Shown: in pieces, positions 55,020-59,037 of the stretch | How positions within the stretch are numbered: position 1 is the first letter of the stretch | Layout of the letters: each line of letters opens with the position of its first letter | Assembly (NCBI GenBank): GCA_013791855.1 | Contig: VMTA01000011.1 | Location: 62,001 to 126,000, forward strand | Direction: 5' to 3' | Length of the DNA: 64,000 nt | Origin: Sideroxydans sp. | GTDB lineage: Bacteria > Pseudomonadota > Gammaproteobacteria > Burkholderiales > Gallionellaceae | The notes under the pieces: generated by a model | What the model was told of the DNA's origin: nothing | The model's input: the letters and a program-made list of their open reading frames with translations, nothing else | Database searches by the model: none | Made by a program: the position numbers and the translations under genes

Positions 55020-55229
55020 GCCACGAACCTGAATTGGCTGGAAGAGACGCCAAACACTGCTACGTCAAGCCACCTCACACCGAAGCCCCTCAACAAGTAA
55101 GGGAAGCAAAAACTCTCCCTCATGCCGCTGCATGCCGGCAGCGGCACGCTTGTTTAGCATACGTCTCAGGACAGGCAACGGCGTATCCTTGAACCGACCA
55201 AAAGCAAGGAGGCTTCCTCGGCAGACAAA
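55020..55229. other. Intergenic region without a gene; one hairpin
   Basis: Lies between the DUF3426 gene and the terminator of the cytochrome-porin gene. The one structure seen is TGCCGCTG/CAGCGGCA with an eight-base loop at 55123-55146, followed by GCTTGTTT, which could end the leuS-DUF3426 run weakly. Short frames here have no coding character. Confidence 0.5.
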
Positions 55230-55259
55230 AAACAGGGGAGACCGAAGTCTCCCCTGTTT
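55230..55259 (-). terminator. Rho-independent terminator after the cytochrome-porin gene
   Basis: A 13-bp perfect stem, AAACAGGGGAGAC with GTCTCCCCTGTTT, has a four-base loop and continues into TTTTTT on the minus strand. It lies 60 bases past the stop of the Cyc2-like gene. The A-rich opposite side may let it act on plus-strand transcripts as well. Confidence 0.92.
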
Positions 55260-55319
55260 CATTGGTGCTTGTGCCTGGTTCGGATCCCGGCGAACCGGAA
55301 CCCTTATATCAGCTCAAAC

Positions 55320-56573
55320 TTACCAGGCGGACTCAAGCATCAGGGTCAGCAGGTTCTTGCCTGTGGAACCAACCACTGTCGCATCACTTGCACCGCCTGC
55401 ATTGAATGCAGTACCGGAACCGATAGAGTAGTTGGCAACTACAGCCACGTTTTGCATCAGGTCATACACGCCAGTGAAGGTGATGTACTTCTCCGATTCG
55501 CCAGCGCCGTTCGTGCCGCTCAGGTAGTTGGCACCAACCGACAGCGTATGCGGGATCACAGTGAAATCCGCACCGATCTGAGTAGCTTTTACGTCGTTAG
55601 TAGTGCTGGCGTTGAACTGACTCGCCACAGTTCCATTGCCCTTGGCCGCTTTGGAATATGCGAAGTACAAGCCGGTTTCCATGCCGGCCAGTTCACCATG
55701 AGCCTGTGCAGTCAGACCGTTGCCCTTGGTGGCGACCTTGGTTGCAGCAGTTGTTCCAGTGTAGCTTTCGCCAGTCACGAATTCAGCACTGATCACCGTT
55801 GCGAAGTCAGCGATAGTCGGCGTAGCAGCGATATGCACTGCAGTCGAAGACATCTGGGTTGCTGCCACAAATTGGGGTGCAAAGCGTGACACGTTGATGT
55901 AGCCCATGTCGGAACGCACTACCGCAGCGATACCGGTGGATGCGCCTTGACCGATGCCTGTGTACTGGTGCGCGAACACTTGCGTGCGGTTCTCAGCCCA
56001 ACGGATCGCACGGTTCAGCGCGTTGCTGGATTCTGTGTAGCCGTAGAATGCGCCCAAAGAGTCGGTTGTGAACGGAATCACGGAGACCGATGCGGAGTCC
56101 AGTTCAACTACGACCGGCACGCGCAGGCCAGCAGCAAAAGCACCGGCAGCCTTCAGGTTGTTCTCCATCATCATGCCGACCTTGAGTGCGCCGCTGTCCG
56201 CCACGCGACCGCCGAAGAACAAGGAATATTCGTCAGGGAACTGCCACTGACCACCATTAGTTGAAGAACCAGAAATGGCACCCGCTGCATCAGAGCCGTT
56301 GGTCTTCTGATAACGAACCTTCAACAGTACAGCCGCGTTCAGAGAAGCCGGGATAGACAGGTTCTCGTCTTCAACCTTTTCTTGTGCGCCCATCATGGTG
56401 AAGCCTGCTGCCTTGAATGCACGACCAAAACCGTTCAGAACGGGGAAGTGTTGTGCGTGGCAAGCAGCACAAGCCATGCCGGTCTGGCGTGAGAATGCCG
56501 GGATGGCGGATGCTTCCGGTGCGAAGGCCACAGCGGCCATGACGCCTGCCAATGACAGTACGATTTTCTTCAT
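55320..56573 (-). CDS. Cyc2-like outer-membrane monoheme cytochrome-porin
   Basis: Predicted outer-membrane protein that takes electrons from extracellular Fe(II), by resemblance to Cyc2. I start at ATG 56573, which has a perfect GGAGG nine bases upstream and opens a signal peptide ending ASA at residue 23. Directly after it comes AIPAFSRQTGMACAACH, a single c-haem site (C35, C38, H39), then FPVLNGFGRAFKAAGFT, the conserved segment that follows haem in Cyc2. The remaining 350 residues alternate as beta strands with Gly/Ser/Thr-rich loops and end in aromatic W417, as outer-membrane barrels do. The 417-residue length is right for Cyc2. True iron oxidase activity is inferred, and related cytochrome-porins of other roles exist. 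Confidence 0.85.
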   Translation of the reverse strand: MKKIVLSLAGVMAAVAFAPEASAIPAFSRQTGMACAACHAQHFPVLNGFGRAFKAAGFTMMGAQEKVEDENLSIPASLNAAVLLKVRYQKTNGSDAAGAISGSSTNGGQWQFPDEYSLFFGGRVADSGALKVGMMMENNLKAAGAFAAGLRVPVVVELDSASVSVIPFTTDSLGAFYGYTESSNALNRAIRWAENRTQVFAHQYTGIGQGASTGIAAVVRSDMGYINVSRFAPQFVAATQMSSTAVHIAATPTIADFATVISAEFVTGESYTGTTAATKVATKGNGLTAQAHGELAGMETGLYFAYSKAAKGNGTVASQFNASTTNDVKATQIGADFTVIPHTLSVGANYLSGTNGAGESEKYITFTGVYDLMQNVAVVANYSIGSGTAFNAGGASDATVVGSTGKNLLTLMLESAW

Positions 56574-56604
56574 TGCGTAATTCCTCCAGAACAATTTGTT
56601 CAAG

Positions 56605-56635
56605 TTGCCCAATGATTCCTTGTGCGATTGGGTAA
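56605..56635 (-). promoter_or_regulatory. Inverted repeat in the leader of the cytochrome-porin gene
   Basis: TTGCCCAAT (56605-56613) and ATTGGGTAA (56627-56635) are an inverted pair with one mismatch and a 13-base spacer. It lies 32-62 bases before the start codon. The spacing of about two helical turns between half-site centres fits a dimeric regulator such as an OmpR-type protein or a leader hairpin. No data distinguish these. Confidence 0.5.
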
Positions 56636-56765
56636 CTGACTGATGCACAAGCCGGCGGCGATGCTAGCAACGCCCCCGTAAGTGCCCCGTCAAGGGGATG
56701 TGAAAGGAATGTGAAGTCGGGATTTTTGCAACACCCATGCTTGCGCGTGGGCACAACAGGAGGGA

Positions 56766-58040
56766 TCAGATGGGCGCTTCGGGGATGAAAGTCACTGTCA
56801 CAGTCGTCCCTTGCCCGGCGATGCTGTCTATCACGATGTGCCAGCCGTACCGTTCGCAGATGCGTTTGACCAAAGACAGTCCGACCCCGAACCCGGCACT
56901 CTGCCGGCCCTTGTAGTGCCGTTCGAATACGCGCGTCCGTTCTTCACCGTCCATACCGACGCCGGTGTCGCTGACGACTAGACTATCCCTGTTCAGAACG
57001 AGCCGAACGATGCCTGCCTGTGTGTGGAACATCGCGTTGCGCAACAGGTTGCTCACCACGATCTCAAGCAGTGCTTGCTCGACGGGCAGCGACGGCTCCG
57101 CTTGCAGCTCCAGCATCAATTCCACCGGTCGTTCGGCGAGCAGATGGCGGTGTTTCTCTACCGCATCTTTCACGATAGTCGCCACGGGGCACAGCGGCTC
57201 GTCCGCACCGGGCTGGCGCTCGCGCGACATCAATAACAAAGCGCGGGTCATCTCGGTCATGTCCTGCACGGCACGCTTGATGCGAATCAGCCGCTCGCGT
57301 TGCTTGCCGGACAGGGATGCATCCTGCTCCAGCACCTCCACCGCCCCCATGATCACCGCCAAAGGTGTACGCAACTCATGGCTGACATCACCGGTAAAGT
57401 TCTTCTCCCGCTCCACGAATTCACCCAGCCGCTGCACATAGTGCTCGAACGTGCGCGCCAGTTCACCGACCTCGTCATCTTGCACCAGCTTGGTCAGCGG
57501 AAGGTTCGACATGCCGGGGTCAGCTTGCCGGACCTGATCCGCCAGACGCGTGACCGGCGCCACGACACGGATAGCCAGCCAGAAGCCGCCGCCAGCCGAT
57601 GCCAAAGTCATGAACAAGGTGAAGGCGACCAAAATACCGGCAAACTCAGCTTCATGCTGAAGCTGCGTATCGATATCGAACAACATGAAGTAGCTAATCC
57701 CCTCACGTTCTGCGACCAAGACCCGGTAGTGGTGCTCCTCTATACTCACATCGTGAATGCCGGGCGACAGCCCTCTGACTTCATCAGGGATGTTTCGACT
57801 GGGTTCCTTTTCGGAATAGACAAACCCCTTTATGGACATGGTGTTCGGTGGCGTGTAGGAAGGATGCCCATAGCGTGCGACCGCGTCCTGCAGTTCGTCC
57901 TGCAAGGTCTCATCGATCAATTGGTTGCCCAGATGCTGGGCAAAAACGAACAGTGCGCTGGAGAGCAGCAGACTCAGCAGCACCCCAAAGCTTGCAAATA
58001 CGAATGCGACCCTGAAGCGGAGACTATGCCTGCGACTCAT
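56766..58040 (-). CDS. Two-component sensor histidine kinase
   Basis: A 424-residue membrane kinase. Spans at about 13-34 and 135-160 enclose a periplasmic domain of about 100 residues of unknown ligand. A HAMP-like segment follows, then the H-box FTGDVSHELRTPLAV with phospho-acceptor H221, the N-box NLLRNAMFH, G1 VSDTGVGM and G2 GFGVGLSLVK. It starts inside the end of its response regulator (17-base overlap) and stops 193 bases before the cytochrome-porin start. The order suggests it controls that gene, but this is inferred. Confidence 0.93.
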   Translation of the reverse strand: MSRRHSLRFRVAFVFASFGVLLSLLLSSALFVFAQHLGNQLIDETLQDELQDAVARYGHPSYTPPNTMSIKGFVYSEKEPSRNIPDEVRGLSPGIHDVSIEEHHYRVLVAEREGISYFMLFDIDTQLQHEAEFAGILVAFTLFMTLASAGGGFWLAIRVVAPVTRLADQVRQADPGMSNLPLTKLVQDDEVGELARTFEHYVQRLGEFVEREKNFTGDVSHELRTPLAVIMGAVEVLEQDASLSGKQRERLIRIKRAVQDMTEMTRALLLMSRERQPGADEPLCPVATIVKDAVEKHRHLLAERPVELMLELQAEPSLPVEQALLEIVVSNLLRNAMFHTQAGIVRLVLNRDSLVVSDTGVGMDGEERTRVFERHYKGRQSAGFGVGLSLVKRICERYGWHIVIDSIAGQGTTVTVTFIPEAPI

Positions 58041-58713
58041 CTTCGACCTTTAACTGATAGCCGAAACCGCGCACGGTATGCAGCAATTTGCTCTGAAACG
58101 GCTTGTCGACCAGTTCGCGCAGCAAATACCAGTGTGCGCGCAAGGAATCGCTATCCGGCCGTGCCTCGCCCCAAATTGCCCGTTCGATATCACCTCTGGC
58201 AACGACCTGCGGCGATCTGGCCATCAGCAGTTCCAATATCTTGTACGGGATCGGCGGCAGTAGTATCTGGGTGCCTGCGCGTTTGACCGTAATGGTGAGC
58301 GGATCAAGGCTGAGGTCGGCCACAGCCATACCCCGTTTTTGAGTCAACCCGCTGCCGCGCCGCTGCAAAACGCGTAAACGCAACTCCACTTCCCGCAGTT
58401 CCGCCGGCTTGACCAGATAATCGTCCGCCCCGGCCTCCAGCCCTCGGATCTTGTCCTCAAGCTCATCGCGAGCGGTGATCATCAGGATAGGCGTGTGCTT
58501 GCCGGCTTCCGTCCGTAATTTTTTGCACAGGGTGATGCCATCCATACCCGGCAGCATCAGATCGAGCACGATGGCGTCGTAATCGTTGACCACTGCCAGA
58601 TGCAGCCCGGTGATGCCATCCCCCGCCGCATCCACCACATGACCTTTCGCCTCCATGAAGTCGAACATATTGGAGGCCAGATCGCGATTGTCTTCGATGA
58701 TCAATACATGCAT
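58024..58713 (-). CDS. OmpR-family response regulator
   Basis: A 229-residue transcription factor starting MHVLIIEDNRDLASNMF. The receiver domain has acidic D8/D11, phospho-acceptor D51 in LDLMLPGMDG, T in MITARD and K in LVKPAE. The C-terminal winged helix ends LLHTVRGFGYQL. I use ATG 58713; a longer frame upstream runs through the glycine riboswitch region and is not real. It overlaps the kinase and is divergent from the gcv operon. Confidence 0.94.
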   Translation of the reverse strand: MHVLIIEDNRDLASNMFDFMEAKGHVVDAAGDGITGLHLAVVNDYDAIVLDLMLPGMDGITLCKKLRTEAGKHTPILMITARDELEDKIRGLEAGADDYLVKPAELREVELRLRVLQRRGSGLTQKRGMAVADLSLDPLTITVKRAGTQILLPPIPYKILELLMARSPQVVARGDIERAIWGEARPDSDSLRAHWYLLRELVDKPFQSKLLHTVRGFGYQLKVEDESQA

Positions 58714-58842: not shown

Positions 58843-59006
58843 CCGATGGGAGAGTGTGCTGTCATCAGCACCGCCGAAGGCGTAACACCCGCAACCGCTC
58901 AGGCACCATGTACTATCGGGACAGGCAAATCTGGAGAGCGCTGTTAAGTCAGCCACCGAAGGGGCACGCGGATATTCCGTAATCTCTCAGGTACCAAGGA
59001 CAGATG
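58843..59006 (+). ncRNA. Tandem glycine riboswitch
   Basis: Two glycine aptamers in a row upstream of gcvT. The first has GATGGGAGAG, GCCGAAGG, CTCAGGCA and GGGACAGG at about 58843-58925. The second repeats the set as CTGGAGAG, ACCGAAGG, TCTCAGGTA and AAGGACAGA at about 58930-59006. They are joined by a short linker. This is the textbook arrangement in which glycine binding raises expression of the glycine cleavage system, here through the following terminator. Confidence 0.95.
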
Positions 59007-59007
59007 G

Positions 59008-59037
59008 GGGCGAGGCTATGTGGCCTCGCCCTTTTTT
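59008..59037 (+). terminator. Riboswitch expression platform (terminator) before gcvT
   Basis: A 9-bp stem, GGGCGAGGC/GCCTCGCCC, with a six-base loop is followed by six T residues and lies immediately after the second aptamer. It ends 18 bases before the gcvT start. Glycine binding would be expected to keep it from forming, making an ON switch, as in other such riboswitches. Confidence 0.88.

Follow-up and report, generated by a model that had tools for sequence, protein, structure and literature searches.

Does a two-component system that precedes a gene for the iron oxidase Cyc2 also control that gene? The question is raised by a stretch of 64,000 nucleotides from Sideroxydans sp. (Gallionellaceae; contig VMTA01000011.1 of assembly GCA_013791855.1, positions 62,001 to 126,000), referred to here as the window, in which a first-pass annotation had noticed a Cyc2-like candidate adjoining an OmpR/HisKA pair and had suggested that the pair regulates it. 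Between the pair and cyc2 we found four 11-bp direct repeats of the type TTnAC, which stand before cyc2 genes of the family almost only where the pair exists and which recur at other loci of related genomes. This operator-like array, its co-occurrence with the pair and its distant copies are the new observations. The pair probably activates cyc2 directly, through binding of the regulator to the array as its operator, which would make the locus a genuine cyc2 with a dedicated two-component system.

A repeat array between the two-component system and cyc2

The three genes are transcribed from the minus strand in the order regulator, kinase, cyc2. The open reading frames (ORFs) of regulator and kinase overlap by 17 bp, and 192 bp separate the end of the kinase gene from the start of cyc2. 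The same-strand arrangement described by the first-pass annotation is thus correct, and all domains of the two signalling proteins score above the Pfam cut-offs. Coordinates are those of the window.

58024-58713, minus strand: OmpR/PhoB-type response regulator, 229 aa, Response_reg and Trans_reg_C (Pfam)
56766-58040, minus strand: sensor histidine kinase, 424 aa, HAMP, HisKA and HATPase_c (Pfam)
55320-56573, minus strand: cyc2, fused monoheme cytochrome-porin, 417 aa, ATG at 56573 (ORF, homology and model)

The region upstream of 56573 had been named as the place where the regulator might act, with no mention of an array. It is there, at 56661-56716, that the four repeats were found, the last of them some 10 bp ahead of an extended -10 box. 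Read on the minus strand from 56716 to 56661, the sequence is CTTCACATTCC TTTCACATCCC CTTGACGGGGC ACTTACGGGGG CGTTGC TAGCAT.

56706-56716, minus strand: repeat 1, CTTCACATTCC (side-by-side reading and alignment)
56695-56705, minus strand: repeat 2, TTTCACATCCC (side-by-side reading and alignment)
56684-56694, minus strand: repeat 3, CTTGACGGGGC (alignment anchored on the -10 box)
56673-56683, minus strand: repeat 4, ACTTACGGGGG, degenerate (alignment anchored on the -10 box)
56661-56666, minus strand: -10 box TAGCAT, preceded by TGC, hence extended -10 (alignment)

A scan of 55020-56800 returned no sigma-70 -35/-10 pair, which is a weak negative, as shuffled sequences average 1.0. Operators of the OmpR/PhoB type, such as the pho box, are built of direct repeats with an 11-bp period that stand some 10 bp in front of the -10 box, with a weak or absent -35 box, a layout that depends on an activator. 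By its layout, the array looks like a putative operator of this type. The four-repeat register is also present in relatives, whose upstream regions were placed side by side and then anchored on the -10 box; 26 promoters, picked by a position weight matrix (PWM) score above 25, align without gaps over 64 bp and share 19 invariant columns. A shorter pattern, TTCACAT-N4-TTCACAT, was considered as an element special to the window and rejected, being found upstream of only 4 of 86 cyc2 genes with up to two mismatches.

Occurrence of the array among cyc2 genes and genomes

The comparison comprised 96 distinct cyc2 genes from 82 loci (L045-L126, L135-L154), from which rows lacking the relaxed motif, shorter than 300 aa or identical to another had been dropped. 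A gene was counted as linked if the orthologous pair lay no more than 6 kb upstream (30 genes) and otherwise as unlinked (66 genes). For the PWM, 15 promoters served as the training set, 14 of them pair-linked and the other from L103, and the scored row was left out each time. The array was present in 28 of the 30 linked genes (scores 12.1-74.2) and in a single unlinked gene (72.7; the next scored 1.9). With the cut set at 20 the counts were 26/30 and 1/66, and with the cut at 0 they were 28/30 and 3/66, while 430 shuffles of 86 upstream regions gave a maximum of -4.4. The two linked misses, the third cyc2 genes of L061 and L071 (-1.1 and -1.6), have all four repeats with the -10 box 8 bp farther away, and both are detected by R1, a profile built from the 26 promoters (E 9.7e-7 and 6.6e-5). 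The single unlinked gene is L103 of genome G087, where an unrelated gene follows the kinase and cyc2 lies with its array on another contig.

Neither shared descent nor mere proximity accounts for this pattern. Placed on the cyc2 tree, the array label requires 16 changes; of 13 independent gene pairs that differ in linkage, 12 agree and none opposes (p 0.0005), so descent of cyc2 does not explain the array. Nor does the array only hitch-hike with the kinase, since it remains next to cyc2 in L095 and L099, where the kinase and cyc2 ORFs are 1.0 and 2.4 kb apart, since second cyc2 copies carry arrays of their own, and since in G087 the pair and the array-bearing cyc2 lie on separate contigs. At the genome level, the orthologous kinase (above 430 bits) was found in 25 of 150 family genomes, and R1 sites in all 25 of these and in 6 of the other 125. 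A cyc2 gene follows within about 2.5 kb of this kinase in 24 of the 25 genomes; in G093 the contig end cuts the start of cyc2. The cyc2 bodies themselves seem to be exchanged in front of a conserved slot of pair plus operator, of which L107 is a plain example (kinase 745 bits, cyc2 195 bits).

Regulation of cyc2 by the adjacent pair accordingly receives strong comparative support from a conserved operator-like array that is combined with a promoter of the activator type and is nearly confined to cases in which the pair is present. Several points weigh on the other side. The fourth repeat of the window is degenerate, L065 has the last two repeats only, and those cyc2 genes of L065 and L111 that precede the pair are without an array. 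Four genomes (G089, G101, G109 and G113; 82, 69, 73 and 64 % complete) have R1 sites and no kinase match at E<=1e-60. Some circularity attaches to the count of 25 in 25 and, to a lesser extent, to that of 28 in 30, because the PWM and R1 were trained on these promoters. The separation is flattered by close relatives, which the leave-one-out PWM retains, and the compared loci were chosen by hand, some of them for holding the kinase.

The paralogues of the pair bear on which regulator reads the array. Paralogous pairs (kinase 238-389 bits) occur in 14 family genomes, of which G041 alone also has the orthologue, and no cyc2 was seen in the stretches retrieved around them. Weaker TTnAC arrays with the 11-bp period (PWM 6-22) are present at 11 of 15 such pairs (L139-L153), directly behind the kinase gene in nine, as would be expected if this regulator subfamily reads such repeats. 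SulP-like transporters adjoin three of the five pairs whose neighbours were examined (L139, L140 and L147, with Pfam support for L139 only). Our reading is that the paralogous pairs form a related regulator family with another target. An alternative is that a different OmpR/PhoB-family regulator, for example PhoB, binds the array while the adjacent pair controls something else. Direct repeats of 11 bp just before the -10 box are general for this family, and its other members in the genome are candidates for binding; however, the array follows the pair in genes, genomes and independent contrasts alike, the paralogues have weaker arrays of the same kind, and a general regulator would hardly be so patchy. 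We therefore consider this alternative unlikely.

Distant copies of the array and a possible regulon

In the genome of the window (2.55 Mb in 47 contigs), R1 has one site at E<=1, the cyc2 promoter (E 1.2e-14 within the window). Over the 150 family genomes, with stricter filters that lose weak matches, it gave 58 matches at E<=1e-3 in 31 genomes: the 25 with the orthologous kinase, G038 and G143, in which the sites directly follow paralogous kinases, and the four incomplete genomes named above. Read locus by locus, the matches lie before 32 cyc2 genes, 11 small monoheme c cytochromes (Cytochrom_C by Pfam in the one tested) and four PAS-GGDEF-EAL-like genes, behind two paralogous kinases, at eight sites beside ppc, and at one unassigned site. 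The PAS-GGDEF-EAL-like genes begin 0.5-1.2 kb behind the site, two of the four having been tested, and in G050 another ORF lies in between. The ppc-side sites point into a gap without a long ORF.

As an order-wide control, 200 genomes were drawn with the own family included. Outside the family, R1 matched six of them at E<=1e-3, half of these from a single family, and every such match lay at 21.1-24.9 bits; family sites below about 26 bits are therefore uncertain. Above 26 bits there are 15 sites away from cyc2, none of which was in the R1 training set, and they fall into three recurring settings: seven cytochromes, six ppc-side sites and two PAS-GGDEF-EAL genes. Distant sites at E<=1e-3 are present in 15 genomes, of which twelve have the orthologous kinase and G101, G109 and G113 do not (this count leaves out G089 and the two paralogue sites).

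The ppc-side stretches may correspond to a non-coding RNA. In eight genomes about 300 conserved nucleotides beside ppc are preceded by an array promoter, end in a terminator-like hairpin and contain no long ORF. All are conserved intergenic stretches.

L070, 4330-4675, minus strand: ppc-side stretch
L099, 12480-12835: ppc-side stretch
L069, 12020-12370: ppc-side stretch
L192, 7930-8200: ppc-side stretch
L193, 7915-8195, minus strand: ppc-side stretch
L209, near 6386, minus strand: ppc-side stretch
L210, 5600-5890, minus strand: ppc-side stretch
L211, 5790-6165, minus strand: ppc-side stretch

Related pieces lie behind cyc2 in L116 and L124. Rfam at gathering scores, run on the window, L071, L099, L116 and L124, has no match to the possible non-coding RNA, and the consensus fold is weak (covariation term +0.19).

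From these data we propose the following mechanism. The kinase would sense a signal in the envelope and phosphorylate the OmpR/PhoB-type regulator, two dimers of which would occupy the four TTnAC repeats. The bound regulator would replace the missing -35 box and recruit RNA polymerase to the extended -10 box that lies about 10 bp beyond the last repeat. Away from cyc2, the targets of this regulator in related Gallionellaceae would include periplasmic monoheme c cytochromes, the PAS-GGDEF-EAL protein and the possible non-coding RNA.

Whether a regulon of this kind, so far undescribed, organises the iron-oxidation chain of many Gallionellaceae is in our view evenly balanced. One regulator on four-repeat operators would then drive Cyc2, the monoheme cytochromes of the periplasm that accept electrons from it (by position, probably Slit_1353 and Slit_2042 in Sideroxydans lithotrophicus ES-1), a cyclic di-GMP enzyme and the non-coding RNA beside ppc, and in the lineage of the window it would have shrunk to cyc2 alone. 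If this is correct, neutrophilic iron oxidation would thereby gain its first assigned regulator. In the published work covered, cyc2 transcripts do not follow activity, and Fe(II)-responsive genes are listed without a regulator. A candidate regulator, a defined operator of 11-bp repeats and a short list of targets make the question of control directly testable, and they provide a sequence rule by which pair-controlled cyc2 copies could be told from copies with ordinary promoters in metagenomes.

Identity of the Cyc2 protein

The features on which the first-pass annotation had based its Cyc2 assignment are all present in the translation: a signal-peptide-like start (by eye), a single CXXCH (CAACH) at residues 35-39, AIPAFSRQTG at residues 23-32, FGRAFKAAGFT at residues 49-59 and a C-terminal Trp417.

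56505-56573, minus strand: signal-peptide-like N-terminus, residues 1-23 (hydrophobic, by eye)
56436-56507, minus strand: Cyc2 signature AIPAFSRQTGMACAACHAQHFPVL, including CAACH as the only heme site and PVL four residues on, residues 23-46 (published motif)
55326-56339, minus strand: beta-barrel part, about 16 strands, residues 79-416 (AlphaFold model, mean pLDDT 58.4, pTM 0.61)

Cyc2 has been defined by the motif AXPXFAR[Q/K][T/Y], said to be unique to it, one CXXCH with PXL four residues later, a minimum length of 365 aa and a porin of 16 strands (Keffer et al. 2021, PMC8406198). The protein of the window, with 417 aa, agrees in length and in spacing, as CAACH is followed by AQHF and then PVL. 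AIPAFSRQT (residues 23-31) fits the motif except for one change, S28 in place of A, a position at which all nine other aligned rows have A. The predicted barrel was reproduced in the AlphaFold model, which contains 16 strands if the short neighbours 146-151 and 154-158 are counted as one; the model is shallow (10 sequences) and of low confidence, and supports the barrel type only. General porins have 16 strands, and these were the best Foldseek matches of the model (E 2.3e-10; OprP, 2o4v, rank 27, E 1.7e-7). At the sequence level, the protein had no Pfam or NCBIfam match at E<=1, and a phmmer search of the PDB sequences found no relative (best E 0.04).

Homologues of Cyc2 are common in the family (115 of 150 sampled genomes at E<=1e-5), so its occurrence here is not due to chance. 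The eight relatives from named genomes are mostly metagenome-assembled genomes of Sideroxydans and Gallionella. Gallionellaceae iron oxidisers with cyc2 all hold at least one Cluster 1 copy, for which iron oxidation has been inferred (PMC10734462). The Cyc2 architecture is thus borne out in every defining feature tested, with one substitution in the motif, and the locus is confirmed, as far as sequence can tell, to encode a genuine and ordinary Cyc2. By homology, it would be an outer-membrane Fe(II) oxidase.

The genome of the window contains a second cyc2 (G000:C38), 65 % identical to the first and without the orthologous pair. At L045, 5599-7341, plus strand, this gene also stands behind a histidine-kinase-like gene, of another type and with HATPase_c below the Pfam cut-off, and is preceded by TTGACA and TTTATT hexamers instead of an array. 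Control of the second cyc2 by the same system was rejected, as it has no array (PWM score -10.8).

The sensor kinase and its possible signal

A periplasmic signal, as suggested by the first-pass annotation, is possible, since a loop of about 95 residues lies between two hydrophobic stretches of the kinase (by eye). In 25 aligned orthologues, P65, P85, L91 and G94 of this loop are invariant, and most of the conserved residues are common to 15 paralogues too. The orthologues have no conserved Cys and no clear metal-binding or acidic cluster in the loop; only E49 and E130 are acidic in at least 85 % of them, with D43 and D111 at 84 %. Consequently, nothing in the kinase sequence points to Fe(II) as the signal. 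ExxE and RExxE are the motifs of the iron-sensing kinases PmrB and BqsS. A kinase of this type is not supported, as the loop has no conserved ExxE or RExxE and the NCBIfam cut-offs of PmrB and PmrA are missed. Among the 25 NCBIfam families listed, none reached its cut-off (best 184 against 279 bits). Candidate signals are redox state, oxygen, CO2 or bicarbonate, and the state of the envelope.

Published expression and the array sites of strain ES-1

Genome G050 was read as ES-1 because the cyc2 spacers of G050/L071, 604 and 437 bp, match the published ones exactly (PMC8788666). R1 finds sites here at cyc2_1 (52.8 bits), cyc2_2 (50.8 bits), cyc2_3 (24.5 bits, hence in the uncertain range under 26 bits), as well as at two monoheme cytochromes (30.7 and 33.1 bits). 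Following hsp33 (Slit_1325) at a distance of 28.6 kb, or about 29 crude ORFs (28 would be exact for Slit_1353), one of these cytochromes is by its position probably Slit_1353. The other may be Slit_2042, as no further family match lies between 1.8 and 2.5 Mb. Slit_1353 and Slit_2042 are highly expressed monoheme cytochromes, each upregulated with Fe(II) in one experiment, and candidates for the periplasmic carrier (PMC8788666). Slit_2657 and the irc cytochromes, also named in that paper, have no assignable R1 site. The irc genes (Slit_1321-1325; hsp33 at 1.3165 Mb) were rejected as regulon members because none of the ten R1 matches listed for G050 lies at them.

Some of these data argue against the proposed mechanism and against a simple Fe(II) switch. 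The two array-bearing cytochromes respond in different experiments (PMC8788666), and the Fe(II)-responsive irc genes are without a site among the ten G050 matches listed at E<=1. The cyc2 data of ES-1 are mixed: cyc2_1 is strongly expressed under every condition, at a lower level on long-term Fe(II)-citrate than on thiosulfate, and the other two genes, cyc2_2 and cyc2_3, rise (PMC8788666). In the genome of the window, cyc2 has the only R1 site at E<=1, and the three homologues of the monoheme cytochrome have none.

Expression data are also relevant to the role of the protein itself. In Sideroxydans CL21, cyc2 expression does not follow iron-oxidising activity, and a role of Cyc2 as Fe(II) sensor was suggested by the authors (PMC12442390). 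Such a role, or the use of another electron donor, could apply to the protein of the window, which also differs from the Cyc2 motif by its serine. This appears improbable to us, because the protein belongs among the Gallionellaceae Cyc2, with their Cluster 1 members inferred to oxidise iron (PMC10734462), and its ES-1 homologues are abundant on iron (PMC12016527). Also improbable is that the pair is merely a physical neighbour and the array a strong constitutive promoter element travelling with the chromosomal slot. In favour of this, cyc2_1 of ES-1 ranks with the most highly expressed genes under every condition (PMC8788666, PMC12016527), and pair and array persist in the slot where the cyc2 body is exchanged. 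Against it, distant arrays precede monoheme cytochromes and other genes mostly in pair-bearing genomes, second and third cyc2 copies have arrays, and the array is retained where kinase and cyc2 are separated by 1.0-2.4 kb or fall on different contigs.

Neighbouring features

Downstream of cyc2 and ahead of the regulator gene, two further elements were observed in the window.

55237-55254, minus strand: terminator-like hairpin 3' of cyc2 (hairpin and locus comparison)
58921-59013, plus strand: glycine riboswitch ahead of a gcvT-like gene (gcvT by eye), divergent from and just upstream of the regulator gene

The core of the hairpin, about 30 bp, is near-identical at many cyc2 loci of the family, despite widely differing cyc2 coding sequences. 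In L070 and L099, two-heme c cytochromes and a NapC/NirT-type cytochrome follow cyc2 on the same strand (Pfam support in L070), and in L069 a c-type cytochrome lies behind cyc2. No homologue of the NapC/NirT-type protein was found in the genome of the window.

Comparison with known systems

The first-pass annotation had described cyc2 genes with a dedicated regulator as rarely described. This holds in so far as the published work searched, with supplements and most subscription journals outside it, contains no operator, named pair or regulon for a neutrophile cyc2; it is too strong in that regulators at the ES-1 cyc2 genes (PMC8788666) and RegB/RegA at the rus operon (PMC5506826) have been published.

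With respect to the protein, the likeness to Cyc2 as defined in PMC8406198 extends to the signal-peptide-like start, the single CXXCH, the motif, the PxL spacing, the length and the 16-strand porin, and the difference is limited to S where FAR has A. With respect to the operator, the array shares with pho-box-type operators the 11-bp period of its direct repeats and their distance of about 10 bp from the -10 box, but differs in its TTnAC sequence and in having four repeats.

The closest published locus is the ES-1 cluster Slit_0263-0265. An orthologous pair precedes cyc2 there as well (kinase 470 bits, 55 % identity in G050), and arrays stand before all three cyc2 genes, the third with its -10 box shifted by 8 bp. 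In contrast to the single gene of the window, three cyc2 genes lie behind the pair. These genes were reported to be "preceded by transcriptional regulators" (Zhou et al. 2022, PMC8788666), whose identity and operator do not appear in the text covered.

In Acidithiobacillus, cyc2 is part of the rus operon. RegA belongs to another regulator family, without Trans_reg_C, and the regulator of the window, a winged-helix OmpR-type protein that carries this domain (Pfam), was therefore rejected as RegA-type. The redox system RegB/RegA of Acidithiobacillus ferrooxidans binds upstream of the rus operon (PMC5506826) and so resembles the pair of the window in being a two-component system that acts on a cyc2-bearing operon. 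RegA, however, mostly binds upstream of the -35 box (PMC5506826), whereas the array of the window takes the place of the -35 box.

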